Positions 3,242-11,195 of a stretch of 53,965 nucleotides of DNA are shown one piece after another (the stretch's first letter is position 1; each line of letters opens with the position of its first letter). The stretch is from positions 1 to 53,965 of the forward strand of contig JAHFCO010000012.1 in NCBI GenBank assembly GCA_023249475.1, written 5' to 3'. A program made the position numbers and the translations under genes. Below the pieces are notes generated by a model. The model was not told where the DNA came from and ran no database searches. It worked only from the letters and a program-made list of their open reading frames with translations. This DNA comes from Bacillota bacterium (GTDB lineage: Bacteria > Bacillota_I > Bacilli_A > Erysipelotrichales > Erysipelotrichaceae).

Positions 3242-3739
3242 ATGGAAAAGTTGAATGGGAAAGCAATTGAAATCATCGACGAAATCGTCAAACGGCATTC
3301 CGACCGTCCGGGTCCCGTCAAATTGATGTTGCATGACGTGCAGCATGAGATTGGCTACATCCCGATGGAAGCGATGCTGAAGATCAGTGCGGCGACCGAA
3401 TCTTCCGTGGCGGAAGTCTACGGCGTCGTAACCTTTTACTCGCAATTTACGCTCGCGCCGAAAGGGAAGCATGTCATCAGCGTCTGCATGGGGACGGCTT
3501 GCTATGTCAAAAGCGCACAGGATCTGTTGGATAAGATCCAGAAACTGACCAATAGCCCCATCAACGGGACGAGCGCCGACGGATTGTTCTCACTGGATGC
3601 GACCCGTTGTTTAGGTGCGTGCGGTTTGGCTCCGGTCTGCGTCATCGACGGCGTCGTCATCGGCAACGCGGTGAAGAACCCCAAGGTCGACGAGTTGTTG
3701 AAGAACTGCAAAGCCCAAGCGGCCGTGACGTTGAACTAG
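3242..3739 (+). CDS. hydC: HydC/NuoE-like [2Fe-2S] subunit of bifurcating hydrogenase
   Basis: A 165-residue thioredoxin-fold ferredoxin subunit, the 24-kDa NuoE type. The four [2Fe-2S] cysteines are visible in VCMGTACYVKSA and in TRCLGACGLAPVC. In HydABC enzymes this subunit passes electrons between NAD(H) at HydB and the rest of the complex. The start has AAAAAGGAGA upstream. It is the first gene of a run in which all ten genes touch or overlap through 11195, which places it in the same enzyme as HydB (7638) and HydA (9444). Confidence 0.9.
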   Translation: MEKLNGKAIEIIDEIVKRHSDRPGPVKLMLHDVQHEIGYIPMEAMLKISAATESSVAEVYGVVTFYSQFTLAPKGKHVISVCMGTACYVKSAQDLLDKIQKLTNSPINGTSADGLFSLDATRCLGACGLAPVCVIDGVVIGNAVKNPKVDELLKNCKAQAAVTLN

Positions 3740-3740
3740 T

Positions 3741-4109
3741 ATGGATCTTCGGCCGCTGATCGAAGAATTGAACGCCGAAACCTTGATTCTCGGCCATCCC
3801 CGGGTTTTAGATCGCGACTACACCTGCGTGTTCGCCGCCGATCTCATGAGCGACGCGTTGGCGATGGTCAACTCCGACTGTAAGAAAACCTTGCTGGTCA
3901 CCGGCCTGCAGAACGCACAATCCCTGCGTACGGCCGAGATGCTCGACATCGACACGATCATCTATGTCCGCGGGAAACACCCGGCGCAAGAGGATCTGAA
4001 AATGGCCGCCGAGATGGAAATCAACGTGTTCTGCACGTCGAAGACCATGTATGAAACCTGCGGCATCCTCTACAAGCTGGGGCTTGTCTCAGCCGTCAAC
4101 AATGATTGA
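3741..4109 (+). CDS. DRTGG-domain protein (first copy)
   Basis: A 122-residue protein resembling the DRTGG domain (LILGHPRVLDRDYTCVFAADLMSDALAMV, then KTLLVTGLQNAQSLRTAEMLDIDTIIYVRGKHP). The domain is best known from phosphotransacetylase N-termini and as stand-alone proteins in Firmicute hydrogenase operons; its ligand is unknown. It starts one base after the hydC stop without a clear Shine-Dalgarno site, so translation is likely coupled. A second, shorter relative lies at 5693. A regulatory role for the hydrogenase is inferred from context only. Confidence 0.7.
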   Translation: MDLRPLIEELNAETLILGHPRVLDRDYTCVFAADLMSDALAMVNSDCKKTLLVTGLQNAQSLRTAEMLDIDTIIYVRGKHPAQEDLKMAAEMEINVFCTSKTMYETCGILYKLGLVSAVNND

Positions 4110-4518
4110 GCAGCGCTATGCGATCGGACATGCGGACTATGCCAACGCCGGCAAAGTCTCCAGTCAGATCAAATCGTTTCTGAAACAGATCGGACTGGAT
4201 CCGACCTTGTTGCGGCGGATCGCCGTCGCCTGTTATGAAGCCGAAATCAACATGATCATCCATTCCTACGGCGGTGAAATCACGCTGGCCATGGATGAGA
4301 ACAGTTTGGATCTGAATTTCAAAGATAACGGTCCGGGAATCCCGGACGTGGAAAAAGCCATGACGCCCGGTTGGTCGACCGCGAGCGAAAAAGCGCGCGA
4401 ATTCGGATTCGGCGCCGGCATGGGTCTTCCCAACATCAAACGGATGGCGGATACCTTCGAAATCCAATCGACGCAAAGCGGTACGCATGTACACATCGCT
4501 TTCAAGGTGAACGAATGA
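4102..4518 (+). CDS. RsbW/SpoIIAB-like ATP-binding protein (GHKL fold)
   Basis: A 138-residue single-domain GHKL ATPase. The N-box is CYEAEINMIIHS, the G1 box DNGPGIPD and the G2 box GAGMGLPN. Small proteins of this kind act as anti-sigma factors or serine kinases on STAS partners, but no sigma factor or STAS gene is seen here. Its start overlaps the preceding gene by eight bases and its stop overlaps the next start (ATGA), so it is translated as part of the hydrogenase operon. The partner is unknown; a role in hydrogenase control is inference. Confidence 0.8.
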   Translation: MIEQRYAIGHADYANAGKVSSQIKSFLKQIGLDPTLLRRIAVACYEAEINMIIHSYGGEITLAMDENSLDLNFKDNGPGIPDVEKAMTPGWSTASEKAREFGFGAGMGLPNIKRMADTFEIQSTQSGTHVHIAFKVNE

Positions 4519-5696
4519 GTGTGGTCACATACACATTGGCCAAGTGCCAGAAATGCATGAAATGCCTGCGCGTCTGTCCGGTGGAAGCCATCACCATGAA
4601 GGACGAGCGGGTAAGAATCAATAAGTCCCGTTGCATCAACTGCGGGAAATGCATCGATTCCTGCGTCCATCAAGGCCTGCAGGCGAAGGGGAGCACCCTC
4701 GCCGAACTGGAATATTACGACGTGAAGATCGCCTTGGTGCCCTCCGCCTTACTGGCGGCCGCTTCCACGGTCGATCAGATCGAAGAACTCTTCGGGACGA
4801 TCAAAAGCCTGGGCTTCGACGAAGTCGTCGACCTGTCGCCCTACGACGGGGCGGTCGCCAACGAACTCTACGGCATGATCTCAGACCAGAAGGAACCCTA
4901 CCTGATCTCCTCGTTCTGTCCGGTGGTCAATCGCTTGATCGAAGTGAAATACCCCATGTTGCTGGAATACATGGTGCCTCCGTATCGGTCGGCGGAACTC
5001 GCCAGCCGGAGAATCCGCGAAGAAACGGTGAAACTGAATCAGAAAGTCGGGATCTTCCTGCTTTGCGAATGCATCGCGAAGCTTCCGACCTCGAAATATC
5101 CCTACGGCGATACCTCGAGTGAAATCGACCATGCCTTATCGATCGTCGACCTCTTCCCCCGCATCAGTAAAGAAATGGGGAATCATCGGGAATCGGTCGA
5201 CCCGTCACCCGACGGATTGAAGTTGGCGAGCAGCGCCCACTTCACGACCAAAGGCCATGAATCCCACATCTTACGGGCCGACGGGTTGGAAAAAGTCCAG
5301 TTGGCGCTCGATTTGGCCGAATTCGGGCAGTTGAAAGGCAGGCATTACCTGCATCTCTCCAATTGCATCAACGGATGCGTCGGCGGGAACCTGCTTTGGG
5401 GCAACCCCTTCGAAGCCACCCAACATGTCAGCGAACATTTGAAGACGGTGCGCGGCACCAACGCGCAGGTCGTCTTCGAAGCCAGCGAAGAATCGTTGGA
5501 CGAAGTGAACGAACGAAAGTCCATCCAGGAAAGAATCCTGGAATACGCGCGGGTCAACGCGCAGCTGGAACAGTTGCCCGGGTATGACTGCGGGGCGTGC
5601 GGATTCGCTTCCTGCCGGATGATGGCGGAAGAAATCGCCGCCGGACGCGCGACCCTGGAAAACTGCCGGATCCGCAACCACGAGGTGAAATCATGA
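4515..5696 (+). CDS. [FeFe]-hydrogenase-like iron-sulfur protein with altered active-site loops
   Basis: A 393-residue protein with an N-terminal 2x[4Fe-4S] ferredoxin domain (cysteines from C11), an Fe-hydrogenase large-subunit domain, and a C-terminal four-cysteine Fe-S domain (C359, C362, C367, C384) of the kind found in RnfB. The three H-cluster loops are recognisable but not canonical. L1 reads SSFCP (C135) rather than TSCCP, L2 reads CECIAK (C184, C186) rather than MPCxxK, and L3 reads NCINGCVGGN (C284, C288). Cluster-binding cysteines therefore remain while residues used in catalysis or proton transfer are changed. It may sense H2 or redox state, or carry electrons. ATGA overlap with its upstream neighbour. 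Confidence 0.82.
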   Translation: MSVVTYTLAKCQKCMKCLRVCPVEAITMKDERVRINKSRCINCGKCIDSCVHQGLQAKGSTLAELEYYDVKIALVPSALLAAASTVDQIEELFGTIKSLGFDEVVDLSPYDGAVANELYGMISDQKEPYLISSFCPVVNRLIEVKYPMLLEYMVPPYRSAELASRRIREETVKLNQKVGIFLLCECIAKLPTSKYPYGDTSSEIDHALSIVDLFPRISKEMGNHRESVDPSPDGLKLASSAHFTTKGHESHILRADGLEKVQLALDLAEFGQLKGRHYLHLSNCINGCVGGNLLWGNPFEATQHVSEHLKTVRGTNAQVVFEASEESLDEVNERKSIQERILEYARVNAQLEQLPGYDCGACGFASCRMMAEEIAAGRATLENCRIRNHEVKS

Positions 5697-6022
5697 ACAT
5701 TCAAGAAGTCGCCGCCCATACCGGGTGGCAGATCGCAGTCGATTCGCAACTGGATCCGAAAGTCGAAGGCGTCTTCGTCGGAGACCTGCTGAGCTGGGTC
5801 ATGGGACATGCCCAACCCGGGGAACTCTGGGTCACGGTCCAGGCCCACGCCAACATCGTGGCGGTCGCGTCCTTGCGCGAACTCGCCGGCATCGTCATCG
5901 CCCATGGCAGCGAGATCGAAGAAGAAACGCTTCAATCGGCCAAGGACGAAGGGGTGATGATCCTGCGTACCCCGCAAAGCGCGGCGGACTGTGTCAAACT
6001 CCTCGCGACGCTTGGCATCTAG
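5693..6022 (+). CDS. DRTGG-domain protein (second copy)
   Basis: A 109-residue DRTGG-like protein (VEGVFVGDLLSWVMGHAQPG, then ELAGIVIAHGSEIEEETLQSAKDEGV). It is shorter than, and clearly different from, the copy at 3741, so the two are not a recent duplication. GAGGTG precedes ATG 5693, and the start overlaps the stop of the hydrogenase-like gene by four bases. Proteins of this kind sit next to iron-only hydrogenase genes in many anaerobes, but their biochemical role is unknown. Confidence 0.68.
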   Translation: MNIQEVAAHTGWQIAVDSQLDPKVEGVFVGDLLSWVMGHAQPGELWVTVQAHANIVAVASLRELAGIVIAHGSEIEEETLQSAKDEGVMILRTPQSAADCVKLLATLGI

Positions 6023-6023
6023 C

Positions 6024-6719
6024 ATGGATTACGACCTGCATATCCACTCCGCCCTCTCACCCTGCGGGGACGACGAGATGCGACCCACAAACATCGTACG
6101 CATGGCGCTCTTGAACGGGTTGTCCCTCATCTCGGTCACCGACCACAACAGCGTGTCCAACCAACAGGCGATGGCGCAAGCGGCGAAAACCTACGGGATC
6201 GCGTATTGGTACGGGGTGGAACTCCAAACCAAAGAAGAAGTGCATGTCCTGGGCTATTTCAGAAACGAAGCCGACGTCGAAGGTTTCGACACTTGGCTAA
6301 GGACGGTCCGCGACACCACCGTGAACCGGATCGACCATTTCGGGAACCAGTATCTGCTGGACGAAAACGACGAAGTGCTGGGACAGGAAACCGACAGTCT
6401 GATCCTGTCGCTCTCCGCCGGCCTCAACGAATGCGTCGCACAGATCAAGAAGGCGCACGGGAACGTCGTGTTGGCCCACGTGATGGACCGCAAGAACGGG
6501 ATCCTGCGCCAACTGGCCTTCATCCCGAAGAACCTGAACTTCGACGGGATCGAAATCACCCAAACGGACCAACGGGAAACCCTCATCGCGAGCTATCCCT
6601 GGCTAAGCAAAAAAACGTTCTTCCTGAATTCCGACGCCCATCGCCTGATCGACATCCACGATGCCGGCCAAACGATGAGCGAAGAAGAGATCGAAGCGTT
6701 TTGGAGGAATGAACCATGA
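6024..6719 (+). CDS. PHP-domain phosphoesterase-like protein
   Basis: A 231-residue PHP-fold protein. The metal-binding signatures are DYDLHIHSALSPCGDDEM at the N-terminus, SVTDHNS near residue 43, the histidine in VLAHVMD and a C-terminal NSDAHRL. PHP enzymes hydrolyse phosphoesters with two or three metals; the substrate here is unknown. It begins one base after the DRTGG gene and overlaps the next gene by four bases. A PHP gene in this exact setting is a recurring feature of hydrogenase-linked regulatory clusters. Confidence 0.85.
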   Translation: MDYDLHIHSALSPCGDDEMRPTNIVRMALLNGLSLISVTDHNSVSNQQAMAQAAKTYGIAYWYGVELQTKEEVHVLGYFRNEADVEGFDTWLRTVRDTTVNRIDHFGNQYLLDENDEVLGQETDSLILSLSAGLNECVAQIKKAHGNVVLAHVMDRKNGILRQLAFIPKNLNFDGIEITQTDQRETLIASYPWLSKKTFFLNSDAHRLIDIHDAGQTMSEEEIEAFWRNEP

Positions 6720-7276
6720 TGCAAGACTTCGCCATGCATCTCCTGGACCTGGCGCACAATTCGATCAGCGCGAAAGCGACGACCTTGCTCATCAAGGTCC
6801 ACGAGTCTCCCTCAAACGACCGCTTCGAGATCAGTTTGACGGACGATGGCTGCGGGATGGATGAGGAAACCGTCAAGAAAGCGCGCAACCCGTTCTACAC
6901 GTCGCGTACGACGCGCCGGGTGGGGTTGGGGATTCCGCTTTTGGAGGGAACGACCAAGCAATGCGCCGGTAAGTTCCATCTGAAGTCGACTCCGGGCAAA
7001 GGAACCACCATCGGTTCGATCGTCCCCTACGACTGCATCGACCGTCCGCCGTTGGGGGATGTGGGGCAATGCGTGGCGATGATCCTGCAAGCCTCGCCCA
7101 CGCTTCACCTGACGCTCGACTATGCCTATGAATCCGAGAAGTTTCGTTTGGACAGTGATGAAATCAAAGCGACCTTGGGCGATGTATCGATCGACGAGCC
7201 GGAAATCCTGCTCTTCATCCAATCCTATGTCCAAGAACATATCAAAGCGCTGCAACATGGAGGAAAAAGCCAATGA
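6716..7276 (+). CDS. Histidine-kinase-like ATPase without a kinase core
   Basis: A 186-residue GHKL ATP-binding protein. The N-box is LDLAHNSISA, the G1 box DDGCGMDEE, an F-box-like NPFYTSRTTRRVGLGIP, and the G2 region TPGKGTT. There is no dimerisation/histidine-phosphoacceptor domain, sensor or membrane segment. It resembles sensor-kinase catalytic domains more than the RsbW-like protein at 4102, so the operon holds two different ATP-binding modules. GGAGG lies eight bases before ATG 6716; ATG 6719 is also possible. Partner and phosphorylation target are unknown. Confidence 0.82.
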   Translation: MMQDFAMHLLDLAHNSISAKATTLLIKVHESPSNDRFEISLTDDGCGMDEETVKKARNPFYTSRTTRRVGLGIPLLEGTTKQCAGKFHLKSTPGKGTTIGSIVPYDCIDRPPLGDVGQCVAMILQASPTLHLTLDYAYESEKFRLDSDEIKATLGDVSIDEPEILLFIQSYVQEHIKALQHGGKSQ

Positions 7277-7626
7277 AAACATTGCAAGATCTACAAAAAC
7301 TACGGGATGAAGCCAAAAAACGGGTCAGTATGCGCGAAGGGGACGTACGTTACCGCGTGTTGGTCGGTATGGCGACCTGCGGCATCGCGGCCGGAGCACG
7401 TCCGGTGCTCAACGCCTTGGTCGAAGCGTGCGCCAAAGAACACTACGACTGCACCGTGACCCAAACGGGATGCATCGGAATGTGCACCTACGAACCGATC
7501 GTCGAAGTCCTCGACCAAGACGGCAAGAAGACCACCTACATCCATGTCGACGCCAAAAAAGCCGTCGAAATCTTGGAAAGCCATGTCAAGAACGGCATCC
7601 TCTTGGAAGCCTATAGCTTGCAGTAA
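7273..7626 (+). CDS. Thioredoxin-like [2Fe-2S] ferredoxin of hydrogenase operon
   Basis: A 117-residue protein with a cysteine pattern for a [2Fe-2S] cluster in a thioredoxin fold: MATCGIAAGA and TQTGCIGMCTYEP. It resembles the small ferredoxin subunit (HydD/HndB type) found next to NuoF-like subunits of NAD(P)-dependent iron-only hydrogenases. GGAGG precedes the start and it overlaps the upstream ATPase gene by four bases. The same fold is repeated at the N-terminus of the following HydB, suggesting parallel or alternative electron entry points. Confidence 0.83.
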   Translation: MKTLQDLQKLRDEAKKRVSMREGDVRYRVLVGMATCGIAAGARPVLNALVEACAKEHYDCTVTQTGCIGMCTYEPIVEVLDQDGKKTTYIHVDAKKAVEILESHVKNGILLEAYSLQ

Positions 7627-7637
7627 GGGGAACAACC

Positions 7638-9434
7638 ATGGAAAGAATGCATGTATTGGTGTGCGCCGGGACGGGATGTACTTCCTCGCTCTCCGCACAA
7701 GTCGTCGAACAGATCCAAAGCGAACTGGTCAAACTGAATCTGCAGACCGAAGTCAAAGTCATCAAGACCGGATGTTTCGGCTTGTGTCAAAAAGGACCGA
7801 TCGTGGCCATCCACCCCGACCGCGTCTTTTATTGCCATGTCACCCCCGCCGACGCGGTGGAGATCGTCGCCGAACACATCTATAAAGGCCGTCCTGTCAA
7901 ACGTTTGGAATTGACGGACATCGACGAAGTGACCAAGGAAAAAATCTTCAACATCGACGAGATCAAGTTCTATGCGAAACAACAACGGATCGCATTGAAG
8001 AACTGCGGCGTCATCAACCCGGAAGACATCGACGAATACATCGCGATGGAAGGCTACATGGCCTTGGGGAAAGCCCTCACCACCATGACGCCCCAGGAAG
8101 TCATCGACGAAGTCAAGAAATCCGGATTACGGGGCAGAGGCGGCGGCGGCTTCCCGACCGGCGCGAAATGGCAGTTCGCGGCCAACCAGCCCAAAGGTCA
8201 GAAATACGTCATCTGTAACGCCGACGAAGGGGATCCCGGGGCGTTCATGGATCGCTCCATCCTCGAAGGCGACCCGCATGTCGTTTTGGAATCCATGGCG
8301 ATCGCCGGCTATGCCATCGGCGCCAACCACGGTTACGTCTACATCCGTGCCGAATACCCGATCGCGGTCGAACGCTTGGAAATCGCCTTGAAGCAAGCCC
8401 GTGAACTCGGGTTGCTTGGCAACAACATCTTCTCTTCAGGCTTTGATTTCGACATCGAAATCCGACTTGGCGCCGGCGCCTTCGTCTGCGGTGAAGAAAC
8501 CGCATTGATCCAATCGATCGAAGGAAAGCGCGGGATGCCGCGCCCGAAGCCTCCGTTCCCGGCGGTTTCAGGGGTATGGGGCAAACCCACCATCATCAAC
8601 AACGTGGAGACCTTCGCCAACGTGGCGCCGATCCTGCGTAAAGGCAGCGAATGGTTCGCAAGCATCGGGACCGAGAAGTCCAAGGGAACCAAAGTCTTCG
8701 CATTGGGCGGTAAGATCAGCAACACCGGCTTGGTCGAAGTCCCGATGGGGACGACCCTGCGCGAAGTCATCTATGAAATCGGCGGCGGTTGCCCCGACAA
8801 CAAGAACTTCAAGGCGGTGCAGACCGGCGGTCCTTCCGGCGGTTGTCTCACCGAAGCCGACCTGGATACCGGGATCGACTTCGACAACCTGGTCGCGCTG
8901 GGATCCATGATGGGTTCGGGCGGGATGATCGTCCTTGACGAAGACAACTGCATGGTCGACGTCGCCCGTTTCTACATGGACTTCATCGTCGACGAATCCT
9001 GCGGGAAATGCAGCCCGTGCCGCATCGGCACCAAGCGCATGCTTGAAATGCTGACGGACATCTGCGAAGGCAGGGGCACCGCGGAAACCCTCTTTGAACT
9101 GGAACGATTGGCCCACAAAGTCAAGGATACTTCCTTATGCGGATTGGGACAAACCGCATCCAACCCCGTCCTTTCCACCCTGCGTCTCTTTAAATCCGAA
9201 TATGACGCCCACGTTTTCGATAAGAAATGCCCGGCCCATGTTTGTAAGAACCTGCTGACCTACAGTATCGTCGCGGAAGCGTGCCGCAAATGCGGACTCT
9301 GCGCCCGCAATTGCCCGACCAGCGCCATCACCGGCGTCTTGGGTAAGGAAGTCTATGTCATCGACCCTGCGAAGTGCATCCGTTGCGGTGCGTGTATGAC
9401 CGCTTGCCGCTTCGGCGCCGTCTTGCGCGGATAG
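7638..9434 (+). CDS. hydB: HydB/NuoF-like flavoprotein subunit of electron-bifurcating hydrogenase
   Basis: A 598-residue subunit that binds NAD(H) and FMN. Order of domains: a thioredoxin-like [2Fe-2S] domain (CAGTGC...GCFGLC, residues about 9-85), the NuoF Rossmann-like FMN/NAD domain (GRGGGGFPTGAKW, NADEGDPGAF, GAGAFVCGEETAL), an SLBB segment, a [4Fe-4S] motif ESCGKCSPCRIG, and two C-terminal [4Fe-4S] clusters (CRKCGLCARNCP, CIRCGACMTACR). This architecture is that of HydB in HydABC complexes, where NADH and reduced ferredoxin oxidation are coupled to H2 formation. AGGGGA precedes the start. Confidence 0.96.
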   Translation: MERMHVLVCAGTGCTSSLSAQVVEQIQSELVKLNLQTEVKVIKTGCFGLCQKGPIVAIHPDRVFYCHVTPADAVEIVAEHIYKGRPVKRLELTDIDEVTKEKIFNIDEIKFYAKQQRIALKNCGVINPEDIDEYIAMEGYMALGKALTTMTPQEVIDEVKKSGLRGRGGGGFPTGAKWQFAANQPKGQKYVICNADEGDPGAFMDRSILEGDPHVVLESMAIAGYAIGANHGYVYIRAEYPIAVERLEIALKQARELGLLGNNIFSSGFDFDIEIRLGAGAFVCGEETALIQSIEGKRGMPRPKPPFPAVSGVWGKPTIINNVETFANVAPILRKGSEWFASIGTEKSKGTKVFALGGKISNTGLVEVPMGTTLREVIYEIGGGCPDNKNFKAVQTGGPSGGCLTEADLDTGIDFDNLVALGSMMGSGGMIVLDEDNCMVDVARFYMDFIVDESCGKCSPCRIGTKRMLEMLTDICEGRGTAETLFELERLAHKVKDTSLCGLGQTASNPVLSTLRLFKSEYDAHVFDKKCPAHVCKNLLTYSIVAEACRKCGLCARNCPTSAITGVLGKEVYVIDPAKCIRCGACMTACRFGAVLRG

Positions 9435-9443
9435 GAGGAACCC

Positions 9444-11195
9444 ATGAGTAAAGTCCATTTAAAAATCAACGGTTTGAACGTCGAGGCCGAAGCCGGCTCG
9501 ACGATCTTGGAAGCCGCGAAAGCCGCCGGCATCCGTATCCCGACCCTCTGTTATCTCAAAGGAACGACCGCCAGCGGGGCATGCCGCGTCTGTACGGTCG
9601 AAATCAAGAACGTCCGTTCCTTGGGTGCCGCCTGCGTCTATCCGGTCGCGGAAAACATGGAAGTGTTCACCCACTCCCAACGCGCCATCGACGCACGCCG
9701 TAACACCGTCGAACTGATCCTCTCCAACCACTCCAAAGACTGCCTCTCCTGCATCCGCAACCAAAACTGCGAACTGCAAGCCTTGGCGCAGGAAGTCAAC
9801 GTCCGCGACCAAGCTTTCGCCGGTGAGAAATCGATTCCCACCTACGATGACGTCGCCCCGGGCATCGTCCGCGACACGACCAAATGCGTCCTGTGCGGCC
9901 GTTGCGTCGAAACCTGCAAGAATGTCCAAGGCCTGGGCATCCTGGATTTCCAGGAACGCGGCTTCAAGACGACCGTCGGCCCCGTCTTCAATAAATCCTT
10001 CAGCGAAGTCAACTGTATGCAATGCGGACAATGCATCAACGTCTGTCCGGTCGGCGCGCTGTGTGAAAAAGAAGAAATCCACGAAGTCATCCAAGCCCTC
10101 AACGACCCCACCAAACACGTCGTCGTGCAGACCGCGCCCGCGGTACGCGCTTCCTTGGGTGAAGAATTCGGGAACCCCATCGGAACCCGCGTCACCGGCA
10201 AGATGGTCGCCTCCTTGCGTCGTATCGGTTTCGACCGCGTCTATGATACCAACTATGCCGCCGACCTGACCATCATGGAAGAAGGGACGGAATTCCTGCA
10301 CCGTGTCGCCGAGAAGGGCACCTTGCCGATGATCACCTCCTGTTCGCCGGGTTGGGTCCGTTATCTCGAATTCGAATACCCCGACCTGATCCCCAATCTT
10401 TCCACCTGCAAGTCCCCCCACATGATGTTCGGGGCGATCTTGAAATCGTACTACGCAAAAACCAAAGGCATCGACCCCAAAGACGTCGTCGTCGTTTCGA
10501 TCATGCCCTGCATCGCGAAGAAATCCGAAAAAGTCCGTGAAGAAAACAAGGTCAACGGCCTACAGGATGTCGACCATGTCCTGACGACCCGAGAACTCGG
10601 ACGCCTGATCAAGATCTACGGGATCGATTTCAATAGCCTCCCCGATGAAGACTTCGACCATGACATGTTCGGCGAATATTCAGGCGCCGGTGTCATCTTC
10701 GGCGTTACCGGAGGGGTCATGGAAGCCGCTTTACGTACCGTCGCCGTCAAACTGACGGGTGAGGAACTCACCGATGTCAACTTCTACGGTGTCCGCGGTG
10801 TCGAAGGCGTCAAGGAAGCCACGTTGAATCTGGCCGGCATGGAAGTCAAAGTCGCCGTCGCCCACAGCATGTCCTTGGCCAAACCCTTGTTGGATGAAAT
10901 CCGTGCCGGCACATCGCCCTACGCCTTCATCGAAATCATGGGTTGTCCGGGCGGATGCATCAACGGCGGCGGTCAGTCGATCGTCAACGCCAGCGTACGC
11001 AACGCACTCGGCGTCAACTTCATGAAACTGCGTGCGAAGACGCTCTATGACGAGGATGTCATCATGCCGCATCGCCAATCGCACAAGAACACCCAGATCC
11101 AGGCGCTCTACGACAACTTCCTGCATGAACCGTGCGGACATCGTTCCCACGAACTCCTGCATACCCATTACACGCAGAAACCAAGATTCAAGTAA
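9444..11195 (+). CDS. hydA: HydA, catalytic [FeFe]-hydrogenase subunit
   Basis: A 583-residue catalytic subunit. It has an N-terminal plant-type [2Fe-2S] domain, a His-Cys [4Fe-4S] motif (HSKDCLSC), two further [4Fe-4S] clusters (CVLCGRCVETC, CMQCGQCINVC), the H-cluster domain and a C-terminal small-subunit-like tail. Loops are L1 TSCSPGW (298-304), L2 MPCIAKKSE (354-362) and L3 EIMGCPGGCINGGG (497-510). L1 has Ser where the TSCCP form has its second Cys; I recall this variant from multimeric hydrogenases but cannot verify it. AGGAGGAA precedes ATG. H-cluster maturases HydEFG are not in the window. Confidence 0.96.
   Translation: MSKVHLKINGLNVEAEAGSTILEAAKAAGIRIPTLCYLKGTTASGACRVCTVEIKNVRSLGAACVYPVAENMEVFTHSQRAIDARRNTVELILSNHSKDCLSCIRNQNCELQALAQEVNVRDQAFAGEKSIPTYDDVAPGIVRDTTKCVLCGRCVETCKNVQGLGILDFQERGFKTTVGPVFNKSFSEVNCMQCGQCINVCPVGALCEKEEIHEVIQALNDPTKHVVVQTAPAVRASLGEEFGNPIGTRVTGKMVASLRRIGFDRVYDTNYAADLTIMEEGTEFLHRVAEKGTLPMITSCSPGWVRYLEFEYPDLIPNLSTCKSPHMMFGAILKSYYAKTKGIDPKDVVVVSIMPCIAKKSEKVREENKVNGLQDVDHVLTTRELGRLIKIYGIDFNSLPDEDFDHDMFGEYSGAGVIFGVTGGVMEAALRTVAVKLTGEELTDVNFYGVRGVEGVKEATLNLAGMEVKVAVAHSMSLAKPLLDEIRAGTSPYAFIEIMGCPGGCINGGGQSIVNASVRNALGVNFMKLRAKTLYDEDVIMPHRQSHKNTQIQALYDNFLHEPCGHRSHELLHTHYTQKPRFK

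Follow-up and report, generated by a model that had tools for sequence, protein, structure and literature searches.

A HydS-like [FeFe]-hydrogenase homologue with a putatively disabled H2 pocket in a hydABC operon of an Erysipelotrichaceae bacterium

The window analyzed here, a stretch of 53,965 nucleotides from a Bacillota bacterium of the Erysipelotrichaceae (contig JAHFCO010000012.1), carries a cluster of hydrogenase-related genes on the + strand. It begins with a HydC/NuoE-like [2Fe-2S] thioredoxin-like subunit (3242–3739, Pfam), a first DRTGG-domain protein (3741–4109; below the Pfam cut-off, but a conserved neighbor) and an RsbW/SpoIIAB-like ATPase (4102–4518). A HydS-like [FeFe]-hydrogenase homologue follows (4515–5696), and then a second DRTGG-domain protein (5693–6022), a PHP-domain protein (6024–6719, Pfam), a second histidine-kinase-like ATPase (6716–7276, Pfam), a [2Fe-2S] ferredoxin-like subunit (7273–7626, Pfam and NCBIfam), the NuoF-like HydB (7638–9434, Pfam and NCBIfam) and the catalytic subunit HydA (9444–11195). 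The RsbW-like gene overlaps the HydS-like gene by four bases (ATGA), and the ATG of the second DRTGG gene overlaps the HydS-like stop by four bases. Given these overlaps at both start and stop, the HydS-like gene is probably part of one operon.

Translation, Pfam and a structural model were used to describe the HydS-like product, a protein of 393 amino acids read from ATG to TGA. Its N-terminal ferredoxin domain (4515–4685, +) contains cysteines 11, 14, 17, 21, 40, 43, 46 and 50, all eight of which map one to one onto C14–C53 of the TamHydS-type reference. Pfam matched N-terminal Fer4 domains, Fe_hyd_lg_C (5.2e-15) and the FeS domain PF04060 (8.2e-12, residues 354–385; 5574–5669, +), the last with the cysteines C359-x2-C362-x4-C367-x16-C384. 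The protein ends eight residues past PF04060 and lacks the PAS domain of group C HydS. The Fe_hyd_lg_C score was only 56 bits, against 319 bits for HydA of the same operon. TIGR02512 scored 39.8 bits against a cut-off of 406, and the group A motifs TSCxP, MPCxxK and ExMxCxxGC were absent.

The original prediction, made from the DNA letters, described three altered H-cluster loops with cysteines C135, C184, C186, C284 and C288, and translation of 4515–5696 gave exactly these. L1 is S132-S133-F134-C135-P136 (SSFCP, 4908–4922, +), L2 is C184-E185-C186-I-A-K189 (CECIAK, 5064–5081, +) and L3 is N283-C284-I-N-G-C288-V-G-G-N292 (NCINGCVGGN, 5361–5390, +). In CpI the cubane is bound by C300, C355, C499 and C503. 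The window protein has C135, C186, C284 and C288 at [4Fe-4S]H ligand positions, C184 at the position of CpI M353 and TamHydS S191, E185 at TamHydS P192, K189 at TamHydS K196, and H280, just upstream of L3, in place of E289. F134 falls at the relay-Cys position (CpI C299, TamHydS A137; numbering from PMC11803613). Pfam also agreed with the predicted N-terminal ferredoxin domain and C-terminal RnfB-type Fe-S domain. RnfB-type is right as a family match, and this domain has already been described as the C-terminal cluster domain of group C and D HydS (PMC8163306, PMC13104023).

At least 49 near-full-length homologues were found at E ≤ 3.7e-76 in the 145 genomes searched, the source genome included. 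A contig scan gave 80 named loci, among them L090 of Thermoanaerobacter wiegelii, in which 24/24 residues fit the numbering published for TamHydS. L090 was taken as the group D reference, and columns were compared in TamHydS numbering; the window protein shares 28% identity with it. Structure alignments covered 47 of the 80 scanned loci. Four sets were counted: P (34 proteins of the window type), S (10 rows, 8 distinct since L048 = L073 and L053 = L074, Haloplasma contractile included), D (80 group D rows) and C (13 group C rows). Exact duplicates and the longer protein L071 were removed before counting, and P was kept free of the fragment L067 and of L020, which has an in-frame TAG and, against the motif, SKCS in L1 and CECAAH in L2. 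The Parabacteroides distasonis HydS (L072) comes from a plasmid-collection record that looks chromosomal (gyrA present). The P type occurs in two families of the window's order.

Among 20 longer regions (17 P and 3 S), all ten genes from hydC-like to hydA were found together in 19, L153 ending at a contig end before hydA; the hydC-like gene lay downstream of the ATPase in two S regions. T. wiegelii has the same gene set with hydC after PHP. In P. distasonis the cassette comprises six genes, and the 15-kb stretch examined carries no hydABC annotation. All four immediate neighbors (both DRTGG genes, the RsbW-like gene and PHP) were present in 62/80 D loci, and hydA or hydB was visible in 42/80, many of these stretches being short. 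A split cassette was seen at L091, L093, L101, L112, L121, L138 and L151, with DRTGG-RsbW-HydS-DRTGG-PHP on one strand and hydC-ATPase-Fd-hydB-hydA pointing away from it on the opposite one. Judged by the neighborhoods of P, S, D and Parabacteroides, the window gene sits where HydS does in a conserved cassette and corresponds by position to group D (M2e) HydS, for which TamHydS of Thermoanaerobacter mathranii is the model. The sensor role first proposed for the protein would fit this cassette; for an electron carrier, the other role then proposed, the evidence points neither way. Its constant presence in the hydABC operon across the 20 regions could also suggest a structural or electron-transfer subunit of HydABC and not a regulator, which we think very improbable, as the group D cassette often lies on the opposite strand to hydABC or in a stretch with no hydB or hydA. 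We also know of no solved HydABC complex that contains a HydS-like protein.

Comparison of columns showed that the P type keeps all 16 cluster cysteines. The four H-cluster cysteines and the C-terminal cysteines were invariant in P, S and D, and the N-terminal cysteines were invariant in P and D at 95% or more. Cluster binding, which the original prediction held to be kept, is thus probably retained, the [4Fe-4S]H ligand cysteines being present in 34/34 P proteins. The L2 Lys of [FeFe] hydrogenases contacts a CN ligand; it was kept in 34/34 P and replaced by Asn in 10/10 S. At L2 position 192, Pro was found in 77/80 D and 13/13 C, and Glu in 34/34 P and 10/10 S. Position 191 (CpI M353) was Cys in 32/34 P (with one Ser and one Ala) and Ser/Thr in 79/80 D and 10/10 S, so that C-E-C-x-x-K is the typical L2 of the P type. 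The S set (L047–L054, L073 and L074) has S/T-E-C-L-S/A-N as its L2 and keeps E289.

Position 137, that of the group A relay Cys, was Ala in 66/80 D and Phe in 31/34 P, and L072 also has SSFCP in L1. Among HydDB sensory hydrogenases, Gly, Ser or Thr is reported at the M353 position, and Cys at the C299 position in only 17% (PMC10055695). Given these frequencies and the SSFCP of L072, F134 is unremarkable by itself, unlike C184-E185. The original prediction had argued for weakened catalysis from the missing L1 relay Cys and Met. This reasoning fails because active TamHydS and TmHydS are described as lacking the L1 relay Cys and both Met too (PMC11803613, PMC10055695), and loss of the L1 Cys was dropped as proof of lost activity.

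The evidence on catalysis came instead from the proton path. In group D this path runs E252-E289-S249-D265, and it is broken in the window protein: both E252 and E289 are missing, D265 is kept as D256, and the Ser that the alignment places at 249 sits in a rebuilt loop. That loop (residues 237–256; 5223–5282, +) is the site of group D W246, G250, G251 and E252, which the window protein has lost. Glu at 252 was found in 70/80 D (7 others have Gln), 0/34 P and 0/10 S, and Glu at 289 in 80/80 D, 10/10 S and 1/34 P. P80, Q85, F86, W246, G250 and G251, 94–100% conserved in group D, were lost in P, and the GGE/GGQ loop motif was absent from 34/34 P and from all S rows. Although 21/34 P rows have some Glu in the relay loop, no single column has Glu in more than three, and no other acid is conserved there. 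In protein P0001 a Glu lies six residues on in the loop (E249) and is not conserved in the family; an individual relay replacement is possible in this protein. The inter-domain contacts R30 and D393 were absent from most P rows. These contacts between the N- and C-terminal domains are thought to be important in group D (PMC13104023), so domain coupling or signalling may differ in the P type.

Published variants of TamHydS show what such losses can do. E252V and E252D are reported to retain less than 0.01% of H2 oxidation and 10–20% of H2 evolution, and E289A/D no more than 3% of oxidation and 30–70% of evolution (PMC10407848). Since both residues are gone in P and their TamHydS mutants are nearly without H2 oxidation, lost H2 chemistry is suggested in the P type. 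Loss of E252 alone would prove nothing, because group A and C enzymes without it are active by other routes. The weakening of catalysis that was originally predicted, or its loss, is thus very probable on the strength of E252 and E289, even though the Cys and Met argument offered for it does not hold. Some group D proteins (Alkaliphilus-type and others: L081, L109, L127, L080 and L135) have E252Q together with K196R and/or Thr/Gln at P192, and the HydS cassette is absent at L081, L109 and L127. These E252Q proteins may mark a second departure from H2 turnover.

AlphaFold2 gave a mean pLDDT of 87.4 for the window protein and 94.3 for the T. wiegelii control. In the relay loop, pLDDT averaged 61 in block 241–250 against 93–96 in control blocks 241–260. 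By Foldseek and VIA-align, the model matched solved [FeFe] hydrogenases (8a6t at 1.2e-14; CbA5H 9f46 with Z 29.9 and rmsd 2.7 over 324; CpI 4xdc with Z 27.3 and rmsd 3.0 over 332). With at least 49 homologues at the E value given above and Z scores up to 29.9, our reading of the protein as a hydrogenase homologue is far from chance. In the model a strand ends at L2, which should place E185 on the opposite side from C184 and C186. This bears on whether H2 might still be turned over slowly by way of a new relay, such as E185 or an acid of the loop that is not conserved. E185 is invariant, P and S share both its gain and the loss of E252, and active TmHydS is reported to use a route that differs from group A (PMC10055695). 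However, E185 should point away from the C184/C186 side, its single origin allows no statistical test, and the loop offers no other conserved acid; we regard a new relay as improbable.

A tree was built from 76 rows (22/34 P, 38/80 D, 6/13 C and 10/10 S) with nine trait columns excluded. Clade support was 100/100 for P, 99/97 for S and 100/99 for P+S. The P+S clade was nested in D beside L075 and L105 (92/92), both of which have Gln at 252, and was split from group C with 100/100. The alternative topology, in which D forms a separate clade without P+S, was not rejected (p-AU 0.287), and P+S may instead be the sister of D. On this tree the L2 Glu required one change and the states at 252 required six. 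The protein had been described as a hydrogenase-like paralogue, but it does not derive from the operon's HydA: it groups with HydS. A recent HydA paralogue was rejected on this ground and on the HydS cassette, and identity as a group C HydS was rejected by the lack of PAS and the separate clade. The placement named beforehand as refuting the original prediction, within an active group whose motifs it shares, applies by half: the protein lies in or beside group D, but its motifs differ.

The window protein has the domains by which group D is defined, namely an N-terminal 2x[4Fe-4S] domain, an H-domain and a C-terminal four-Cys motif (PMC8163306), here Cx2Cx4Cx16C, with no PAS. At the CpI M353 position, where group D is expected to have Ser/Thr, it has Cys. 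Because the proton path and position 191 both depart from group D, we would call it a HydS related to group D, with a putatively disabled pocket, and not file it as a group D hydrogenase.

The gene appears to be under strong purifying selection, as dN/dS was 0.044–0.110 in 6/7 pairs, the seventh pair being saturated. Broken P-type copies were seen in L020 (G069:C95), which carries the in-frame TAG, and in the single-contig genome G117 (G117:C1:1961298-1962436), where the gene is split in two frames; these could be decay or assembly error. They are what might be said for a decaying pseudogene at the window locus. The low dN/dS, 34 intact rows with invariant Cys and the intact operon leave that explanation scarcely credible, and constraint rules it out for the window gene.

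HydA of the same operon, read from 9444–11195, has the usual loops, as predicted (ITSCSPGW, IMPCIAK and MGCPGGC), and passes the NCBIfam group A6 hydrogenase cut-off. It is a group A bifurcating enzyme that shares the fold and the L1–L3 frame with the window protein; unlike that protein, it has canonical MPCxxK and CPGGC and TSCSP in L1. The retained L1 Cys, C135, aligned with the Ser of this TSCSP, in line with the original prediction. TSCSPGW was found in 54/54 partner HydAs (one genome counted twice) and in solved A. woodii HydA1 (7q4v), so that the partner HydAs (L073–L172) and the window HydA have Ser at the CpI cubane-ligand Cys position. Elsewhere the genome has genes for a group C-type HydS, extended at its C-terminus (L003, G000:C11:12314; STCCP, ISPCVAK and SACVGSC), and for a group B-like monomeric hydrogenase (L002, G000:C25:40552; TSCCP and GPCSAK). 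Among the matches listed, a group C-like match was present in most of 21 same-family P-type genomes and in 1 (G128) of 28 same-order genomes. The idea that a group C HydS has taken over H2 sensing and freed the P type is weakened by G128 standing alone among the same-order matches listed.

Homology, synteny, residue losses and constraint can be read directly from the sequences. On this basis we somewhat favor a HydS in which H2 chemistry has been switched off and whose Fe-S clusters provide the signal; the protein probably reports the redox state of the cell rather than acting as an enzyme. In this lineage, the H2-activating side of the pocket (E252 with the W/G-G loop, E289 and Q85) appears to have been dismantled, while all four [4Fe-4S] sites, the H-cluster cubane included, are retained. 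H2 oxidation would be abolished or negligible, and the [2Fe] subsite either not inserted or inert. The redox state may then be read out by the remaining [4Fe-4S] centers, with ferredoxin or a partner as the probable link, and may be passed to the RsbW-like ATPase, DRTGG and PHP partners, by which the hydrogenase or its expression would be adjusted. The 10–20% H2 evolution of TamHydS E252V and the E249 of P0001 count against this reading, as does K189 in 34/34 P, which would fit retained [2Fe] binding.

The [2Fe] subsite might still be received, with H2 or CO sensed when it binds or through a redox change in one direction, without multiple turnover. Besides the invariant L2 Lys of P, the hydrogenase fold is well modelled, the maturase HydG is encoded in the genome, so that maturases for [2Fe] are probably present, and TamHydS E252V under H2 is reported still to reduce its F-clusters (PMC10407848). 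However, S, with the same L2 Glu, has Asn for this Lys, and P has lost six residues that group D conserves almost throughout; we consider such a sensor unlikely. The S set, with the L2 Glu and without the L2 Lys, favors loss of the [2Fe] subsite in the P+S clade; the Lys that P retains argues against it. That the whole clade has dropped [2Fe]H, leaving a plain or differently ligated [4Fe-4S] at the H-cluster site with C184 as a possible extra ligand, is a tentative proposal that we consider less likely than not.

The window protein resembles TamHydS in domain order, in all 16 cluster Cys, in Cx2Cx4Cx16C, in its gene cassette upstream of hydABC and in the missing L1 relay Cys. It differs in having C-E-C for S-P-C in L2 and in the loss of E252, E289, W246, G250/G251, Q85 and the R30/D393 pair. 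The C-terminal cluster of TamHydS was reported in a 2026 study to be unresponsive to H2 (PMC13104023). Like group C (M2f) HydS such as TmHydS, the window protein has a ferredoxin, an H-domain and a C-terminal FeS domain without the prototypical Met pair; unlike them, it has no PAS domain. In our literature searches, with subscription papers mostly outside their scope, no group D variant described as non-catalytic came up.

The nearest published idea to a HydS with a disabled pocket is eukaryotic Nar1/CIAO3, which is hydrogenase-like and keeps its [4Fe-4S] sites without hydrogenase activity. Unlike the window protein, Nar1/CIAO3 is a cytosolic Fe-S assembly factor without a bacterial operon and, to our knowledge, without the C-terminal PF04060 domain. 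The cavity of its lost [2Fe] has been proposed to hold a [2Fe-2S] cluster (PMC12621388). If the P+S clade is indeed without [2Fe]H, it would be a bacterial parallel of Nar1 kept in a HydS signalling cassette, and such a cassette could sense redox state without any H2 chemistry. In the P type, nature has seemingly removed the H2 relay residues in many species while keeping every Fe-S site and the regulatory cassette. The type thus bears on what HydS proteins sense and on whether H2 turnover is needed for the signal, and some of the proteins that family models count as 'sensory [FeFe] hydrogenases' may not handle H2.
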